A program made the translations under genes and the position numbers. Shown piece after piece: positions 14,645-15,508 of a stretch of DNA of 32,089 bases. Source of the DNA: Candidatus Eiseniibacteriota bacterium (GTDB taxonomy: Bacteria; Eisenbacteria; RBG-16-71-46); the NCBI GenBank assembly GCA_023249845.1, contig JAHFBW010000006.1, positions 1 through 32,089 of the forward strand, in the 5' to 3' direction. The notes below the pieces were generated by a model that worked only from the letters and a program-made list of their open reading frames with translations, did not search any database and had not been told where the DNA came from. The first letter of the stretch is position 1; each line of letters begins with the position of its first letter.

Positions 14645-15349
14645 TCAGGAGCGCGACGACCCGCCGGGGCTATCGCGGAACGCGTCGGAGAGCGGGTCCC
14701 AGAACTCCTCGACCAATCCGAGTCGACCGAGAATCATCCGCATCTCCGCGGGCTGCGGGCGTCGAGCGCTCGCCTCGAGTCGCGTCGCATACCAGGCTTG
14801 TGCCATGTCCCAGAGCTGGTCCATGCGAACGAGCGGCCGTAACGGGTGCCCGGTTGCCTTGCACCACTCTCGCACCCGTTCCTCCGACCGGAAGAAGAGC
14901 ATGGTGCTTCATGTGAAGACGAGGTCGTTCCACCATTGGGCGGCGGGGACGACGCAGTGGAAAAGCCAGTCGGACGACGCCGGTCCGCCCACGGGCACAT
15001 CGAGTTCCAGCGGCTCGAGCGTCTGCTCGCAGCGCGAGTGCACGGTGGAGTGGCGTCGCAACGCGGCGGAGATGCCGAGTGCGTCCCAGGCGCAGTTCGC
15101 GTGATAGGTGACACCCGCGGAGCTCACCTGATGCTGGGTCGGCACGCCGGAGAACGGGGGCGCCATACGGATCGACTCCCCGTCGGCCTCGATCAGGAGC
15201 AAGGGCTGCGCGCGAAGCACCTGGAATGCGTCACGCACCGTTGACGCATTGGTACCAAGACGGGTCGCCAGTTCGTCCACGCTCGGACGAACCCCCGTTT
15301 CGGCGAAGTGAGCGTAGATCGCGACCTTGGCTTCGAGGACCTGGTCCAT
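14645..15349 (-). CDS. MerB-family organomercurial lyase-like protein, candidate selenoprotein (in-frame TGA = Sec147)
   Basis: Read from ATG 15349 through a single in-frame TGA (14911-14909) to the TGA at 14647-14645, it codes for 234 residues, close to MerB length. Residues 1-60 are a winged-helix-like N-domain (PSVDELATRLGTNASTVRDAF). The MerB core follows: MAPPFSGVP, HANCAWDALGI with C86 and D89, C107, WLFHCVVPAAQWWNDLVFT, then TGA, then STMLFFRSEERVREWC. MerB from plasmid R831b uses C96, D99 and C159; the spacing puts the TGA on C159, in the FTC-S-T motif. Both halves keep family sequence in one frame, and a SECIS-like hairpin follows the TGA. Known MerB breaks C-Hg bonds. Alternatives are a nonsense mutation or a sequencing error. 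There are no other mer genes nearby; GAGGAG lies 3 nt before the ATG. Confidence 0.75.
14872..14907 (-). promoter_or_regulatory. Candidate bacterial SECIS element
   Basis: Starting 1 nt after the in-frame TGA on the minus strand, GCACC (14907-14903) can pair with GGTGC (14876-14872). Inside, TTCTTCC (14896-14890) pairs fully with GGAGGAA (14885-14879, one G-U) and closes a GGTC tetraloop (14889-14886). The first loop G is 20 nt after the TGA, inside the 16-37 nt range used for bacterial SECIS searches, and a G in the first two loop positions is the conserved feature. As I recall, the E. coli fdhF SECIS loop also contains GGUC. Confidence 0.6.
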
Positions 15350-15508
15350 CGTCTCCTCGCACGACCGTGCCGACGGTGGGTGACTCACGCGAGGCGCCGC
15401 GATGCGGCGGCCGGACGCTGCAGCCGAGGCACCGGGCCCGGCTCGATCAGCGCGCAGTGTGGCCGAACTCGGCGCGCTCGTGAAGGGCTCATCGCCGGCG
15501 CTTGGCCA
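15350..15508. other. Intergenic region upstream of the MerB-family gene
   Basis: 159 bp between the MerB-family start and the thymidine kinase promoter. The minus-strand frame stays open here but the predicted residues are Ala/Arg/Ser-rich and unlike any MerB N-terminus, so I leave them out. I see no clear promoter for the MerB-family gene and no MerR-type dyad. Confidence 0.3.

Follow-up and report, generated by a model that had tools for sequence, protein, structure and literature searches.

A candidate selenocysteine-containing relative of the organomercurial lyase MerB encoded in an Eisenbacteria genome

The minus strand of the window (the whole stretch of 32,089 nucleotides analysed, from a Candidatus Eiseniibacteriota genome) contains two open frames that have the appearance of separate genes, and the question raised by the locus is whether these represent two genes, one broken gene, or a single gene in which an in-frame TGA is decoded as selenocysteine (Sec). 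The best explanation, to which a probability of roughly 0.8 is assigned on the basis of comparative sequence data, is that the locus would encode a full-length enzyme of the MerB superfamily (Sec-MerB), with Sec inserted at the UGA of codon 147, thereby completing a putative Cys-Asp-Sec organometal-cleaving site.

Read without interruption, the minus-strand sequence from 15349 to 14645 constitutes one frame of 234 codons (gene 14645..15349; 234 amino acids including U147) with a single in-frame TGA and a terminal TGA, and runs ATG...NCAWD...FT-TGA-STMLFFRSEERV...TGA with no other lesion. A Shine-Dalgarno-like GAGGAG, present also in the relative L001, is located just 5' of the ATG (15353..15358, minus strand). 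The predicted product consists of a winged-helix-like N-terminal domain followed by a MerB catalytic domain, and the MerB profile of Pfam (PF03243; gathering score 27 bits) matched the whole frame with 91.4 bits, the match spanning the TGA. When the two halves were scored separately, the upstream half alone gave 54.5 bits (profile positions 1-80) and the downstream half alone 19 bits (profile positions 87-125), the latter being below the gathering score; this difference indicates one MerB domain interrupted by the TGA, and bears out the proposal of the initial sequence-only reading that the two apparent genes are a single MerB-family frame. Standard gene calling splits the gene in two at the UGA codon. 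In a fold search, every match below an E-value of 0.001 was to MerB, and an AlphaFold model generated from four sequences was of moderate confidence (pLDDT 74), with low values next to the active site (residues 136-144).

In characterised MerB, mercury is held by Cys96 and Cys159, and Asp99 assists proton transfer (PMC4525700). The placement of C86, D89 and C107 proposed in the sequence-only reading was confirmed in the frame, these residues matching Cys96 (codon at 15092..15094), Asp99 (15083..15085) and the buried or structural Cys117 (15029..15031) of MerB, respectively, all on the minus strand. The first two were kept in 59/59 aligned Sec rows despite a median pairwise identity of 38% (minimum 27%), and the third is Cys in 54/59; by way of contrast, the position of D89 is occupied by Cys in 12 of 15 Cys rows. 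The in-frame TGA (14909..14911, minus strand) had been assigned to catalytic Cys159 from residue spacing, and alignment agreed: U147 fell on the Cys that binds metal in MerB2 (5c17), and on C159 in the C160S form of R831b MerB (3f2g). With wild-type R831b MerB, in which C159 and C160 are adjacent, the profile alignment slips by one, but the ungapped spacing to the next FF favours C159. It is therefore very likely that Sec147 occupies the Cys159 site, in which case all three positions involved in MerB chemistry (Cys96, Asp99 and Cys159, the last as Cys or Sec) are present. With Cys96 and Asp99 kept and Sec at 159, the active site would be Cys-Asp-Sec.

An organomercurial or related organometal lyase activity is somewhat favoured for the predicted product. 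The most durable alternative, which we consider unlikely although deserving of attention, is that this MerB-fold selenoprotein acts on some other organometal or organometalloid, or serves as a metal-binding sensor by means of an N-terminal helix-turn-helix, rather than as an organomercurial lyase. The gene stands alone: no mer gene (merR, merT, merP and merA included) was recognised in the window, nor in any neighbourhood sampled. Flanking genes vary from clade to clade; judged by eye, they encode S58-type peptidase, DoxX-like, DUF899-like and DUF2200-like proteins. Moreover, MerA scored above its cut-off in only 5/45 Sec carriers, and a search of the window's own genome returned no MerA above the cut-off; mercury may therefore not be the main substrate. 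A weak GntR-like helix-turn-helix match was recorded at the N-terminus by profile search, but this is no sign of a regulator, since canonical MerB also has a winged-helix-like N-terminal domain. The related SaoL has been assigned to a Sec-assisted organometallic system (PMC13188914). Against any such change of role stand the retention of all three chemistry positions, Cys96 and Asp99 without exception, and the fact that the sole significant fold matches were to MerB.

Compared with established MerB enzymes (R831b MerB, 1s6l/3f2f; Bacillus megaterium MerB2, 5c17; PF03243), Sec-MerB shares the two-domain fold, Cys96, Asp99 and, mostly, Cys117. However, it differs in having Sec in place of Cys159, in exhibiting only about 20-23% identity in structure comparison, and in being located outside a mer operon, usually without MerA. 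Scores against the MerB equivalog models NF009710 and NF033555 were 42.7 and 37.1 bits, compared with NCBI cut-offs of 193 and 200, respectively.

The sequence-only reading had known of no described Sec-containing MerB, a view that can be upheld only in part. Reviews list one MerB-related selenoprotein, SaoL (NF040728, motif CU), formerly termed alkylmercury lyase MerB-like protein (PMC9312934, PMC13188914), and described as the MerB-like organometallic lyase of the SAO system (Haft and Gwadz 2023, as cited in the latter); an 'organic mercuric lyase MerB2' is also listed without detail (PMC7435645). The present clade is nevertheless not SaoL by the NCBI cut-off, and has no row to itself in a 2026 selenoprotein review. 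That the clade is the already described SaoL family, and hence known, is accordingly regarded as improbable. Both are MerB-related, contain Sec and lie outside mer operons; the SaoL model matched Sec-MerB at 38.8 bits and its relatives at 24.5-44.5 bits; and this model, with 159 positions, would end near residue 148, such that its CU motif may sit at or next to the Sec site. However, all of these scores are below the curated cut-off of 140 bits, and the matched part lies entirely N-terminal to the Sec region. The SaoL family is further distinguished by its shorter model and by a reported operon containing several other selenoproteins, and the CU motif given in PMC13188914, with a Cys adjoining the Sec, contrasts with TU and no adjacent Cys in Sec-MerB; throughout the clade the residue preceding Sec is Thr, rarely Asn. 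We therefore rate Sec-MerB as a new version of MerB beside a known Sec-containing relative, SaoL, and some members of the clade may already be present in earlier supplementary lists.

A sister clade with Cys at the Sec site (support 100/99) has the same length and architecture, and consists of 12 rows: L065, L066, L069, L077, L079, L083-L086, L101, L028 (Paraburkholderia) and L029 (Sphingomonas). Unlike the Sec genes, its members have TGC or TGT at this codon, nearly all are devoid of the hairpin described below, and in 12/12 rows Asp99 is replaced by Cys to give a CxxC motif (C96-x-x-C99). This CxxC clade spans Gemmatimonadota together with a Paraburkholderia plasmid and a Sphingomonas plasmid, both of which carry Cys forms, and possibly has a separate metal-binding function.

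In searches of plasmids and of genomes from Eisenbacteria (47), Gemmatimonadota (395) and Eremiobacterota (149), TGA was located at exactly codon 147 in 57 distinct homologues from all three phyla, a recurrence that cannot be attributed to chance. In the first alignment set, 15 rows had TGC or TGT at this position, as had L101 and the plasmid-borne MerBA L030; these codons also occur at the Sec site in the sister clade and in canonical MerBs. The homologues thus provided the TGA or Cys codons that the sequence-only reading had anticipated, with no disabling mutations elsewhere. When mapped on the tree, the Sec label required two changes compared with 13.8 for shuffled labels, indicative of strong clustering. 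Comparison with a same-genus relative yielded dN/dS values of about 0.24 upstream of the TGA and about 0.24 downstream. A search for viral or phage relatives returned none. Taken alone, one such codon in a MAG that is 87% complete could be an error, but the two corresponding readings, a nonsense mutation that has split a pseudogene and a sequencing mistake at codon 147, are effectively refuted: the codon is likewise TGA in 57 distinct genes of three phyla, assembled independently; constraint is equal on both sides; frameshifts are absent; and the hairpin considered below is conserved.

Three further observations emerged from these searches. In genome G035, of the same family, L027 and L025 represent a remnant Sec-MerB in which residues about 1-78 and 172-228 lie in different frames and the catalytic middle is absent; the gene appears to have been lost here, although the genome retains SelB. 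L031 (G355) and L032 (G164), drawn from genomes classed as Gemmatimonadota, nest within the Eisenbacteria Sec-MerB clade, which suggests either transfer between phyla or misbinned contigs. A MerA-like or dihydrolipoamide dehydrogenase-like frame with one in-frame TGA (G165:C26:57853-59205) may encode another selenoprotein or reflect an error.

Directly 3' of the TGA, the Sec genes share a conserved hairpin of the bacterial SECIS type, usually CUUCC-GGUC-GGAAG; in this gene (14880..14895, minus strand) the core is CUUCC-GGUC-GGAGG, and the loop lies 19 nt after the UGA. The FRSE codons that underlie the hairpin exhibited almost no synonymous variation: among 55 distinct genes, Arg was encoded by CGG in 55/55 and Ser by TCG in 52/52, these codons having shares of 31% and 38%, respectively, over the remainder of these genes; such synonymous changes as were present, GAA/GAG, preserve pairing as U-A or U-G. 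At the exact position, 54/57 genes had a stem of at least 5 bp, and 53/57 combined a stem with a GGTC loop; 400 synonymous shuffles gave, on average, 11 and 3.7 such genes, respectively, and at most 21 and 9. Exceptions include L003, which has FRDE and a shorter stem, and the stem was absent in 13/15 Cys genes. Like the SECIS of Escherichia coli fdhF, the hairpin lies immediately after the UGA and presents a GGUC loop (18 nt from the UGA in fdhF), but the sequence and length of the stem differ. No Rfam SECIS family matched the window. An exact search for TTCCGGTCGGAA after TGA gave no match in the window's genome; the gene itself, with GGAGG, also falls outside this pattern, and the result is thus uninformative.

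The machinery required for Sec incorporation was detected in the window's genome (433 contigs, 87% complete, 5.4% contamination), matches being recorded for SelB (343 bits), SelA (516 bits) and tRNA-Sec (70 bits). SelD, the remaining component sought, is itself a Sec form with TGA at the usual GUAAKLGP site (L018:1502-2529, contig C245), the tRNA-Sec gene following directly after it. Amongst related genomes, G034, G035 and G038 also had SelB above its cut-off, as did G048, a carrier from Eremiobacterota; the same-genus MAG and G049 yielded partial matches that fell below it. Amongst Gemmatimonadota, a SelA match was recorded in 38/40 genomes with the TGA form compared with 3/10 with the Cys form (Fisher p 4e-5, with the relatedness of the genomes ignored), and also in 20/30 genomes without a match to Sec-MerB; 36 of the 38 exceeded the curated cut-off, and the other two, in G402 and G417, were fragments that fell short of it. 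A genome-wide alternative code in which TGA specifies another amino acid, or generic readthrough, was rejected, since the gene itself ends in TGA, homologues without TGA have Cys at codon 147, tRNA-Sec and SelB are present, and the other genes of the window read normally. With TGA aligned to Cys, a conserved SECIS-type hairpin 3' of it, and SelA, SelB, SelD and tRNA-Sec all in the genome, the selenoprotein status first proposed for this gene is, as a prediction, close to certain.

A mechanism may be suggested for the predicted enzyme. The UGA at codon 147 would be decoded as Sec under the direction of the SECIS hairpin about 14 nt downstream, as the comparative genomic data indicate, and the alignment suggests that Sec147 takes the place of the mercury-binding Cys159, with C86 and D89 retained. 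The Sec selenolate and the C86 thiolate could then hold the metal atom of the substrate (an organomercurial or a comparable organometal), after which D89 would relay the proton that cleaves the carbon-metal bond. Compared with its counterpart in a Cys enzyme, the selenolate would ionise at lower pH, serve as a better soft-metal nucleophile and permit faster protonolysis; such a rate advantage is chemically reasonable, because small-molecule selones cleave Hg-C bonds faster than their sulfur analogues, the thiones (PMC11639659). The bound metal would subsequently be passed to cellular thiols: as most carriers are without a recognisable MerA, its probable fate is transfer to thiols or export, not reduction.

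MerB is the reference enzyme of biological methylmercury breakdown, and a natural Sec substitution at one of its two metal-binding residues, in a protein apparently made by this bacterium and by dozens of relatives in other phyla, would test directly whether selenium speeds enzymatic Hg-C cleavage or traps the product, a question approached so far with small-molecule selones. It is a fair possibility, if a less than even one, that these genes constitute a separate and widespread Cys-Asp-Sec selenoenzyme family responsible for organomercury or organometal cleavage in several phyla without MerA and outside mer operons. Such a family, if real, would escape present-day surveys of merB, since called genes end at the UGA, short of the catalytic residue. 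The signature used in one merB survey requires an intact Cys159 (PMC8261052), and surveys of this kind would miss the clade; the demethylation potential of Gemmatimonadota and similar phyla may therefore be undercounted.
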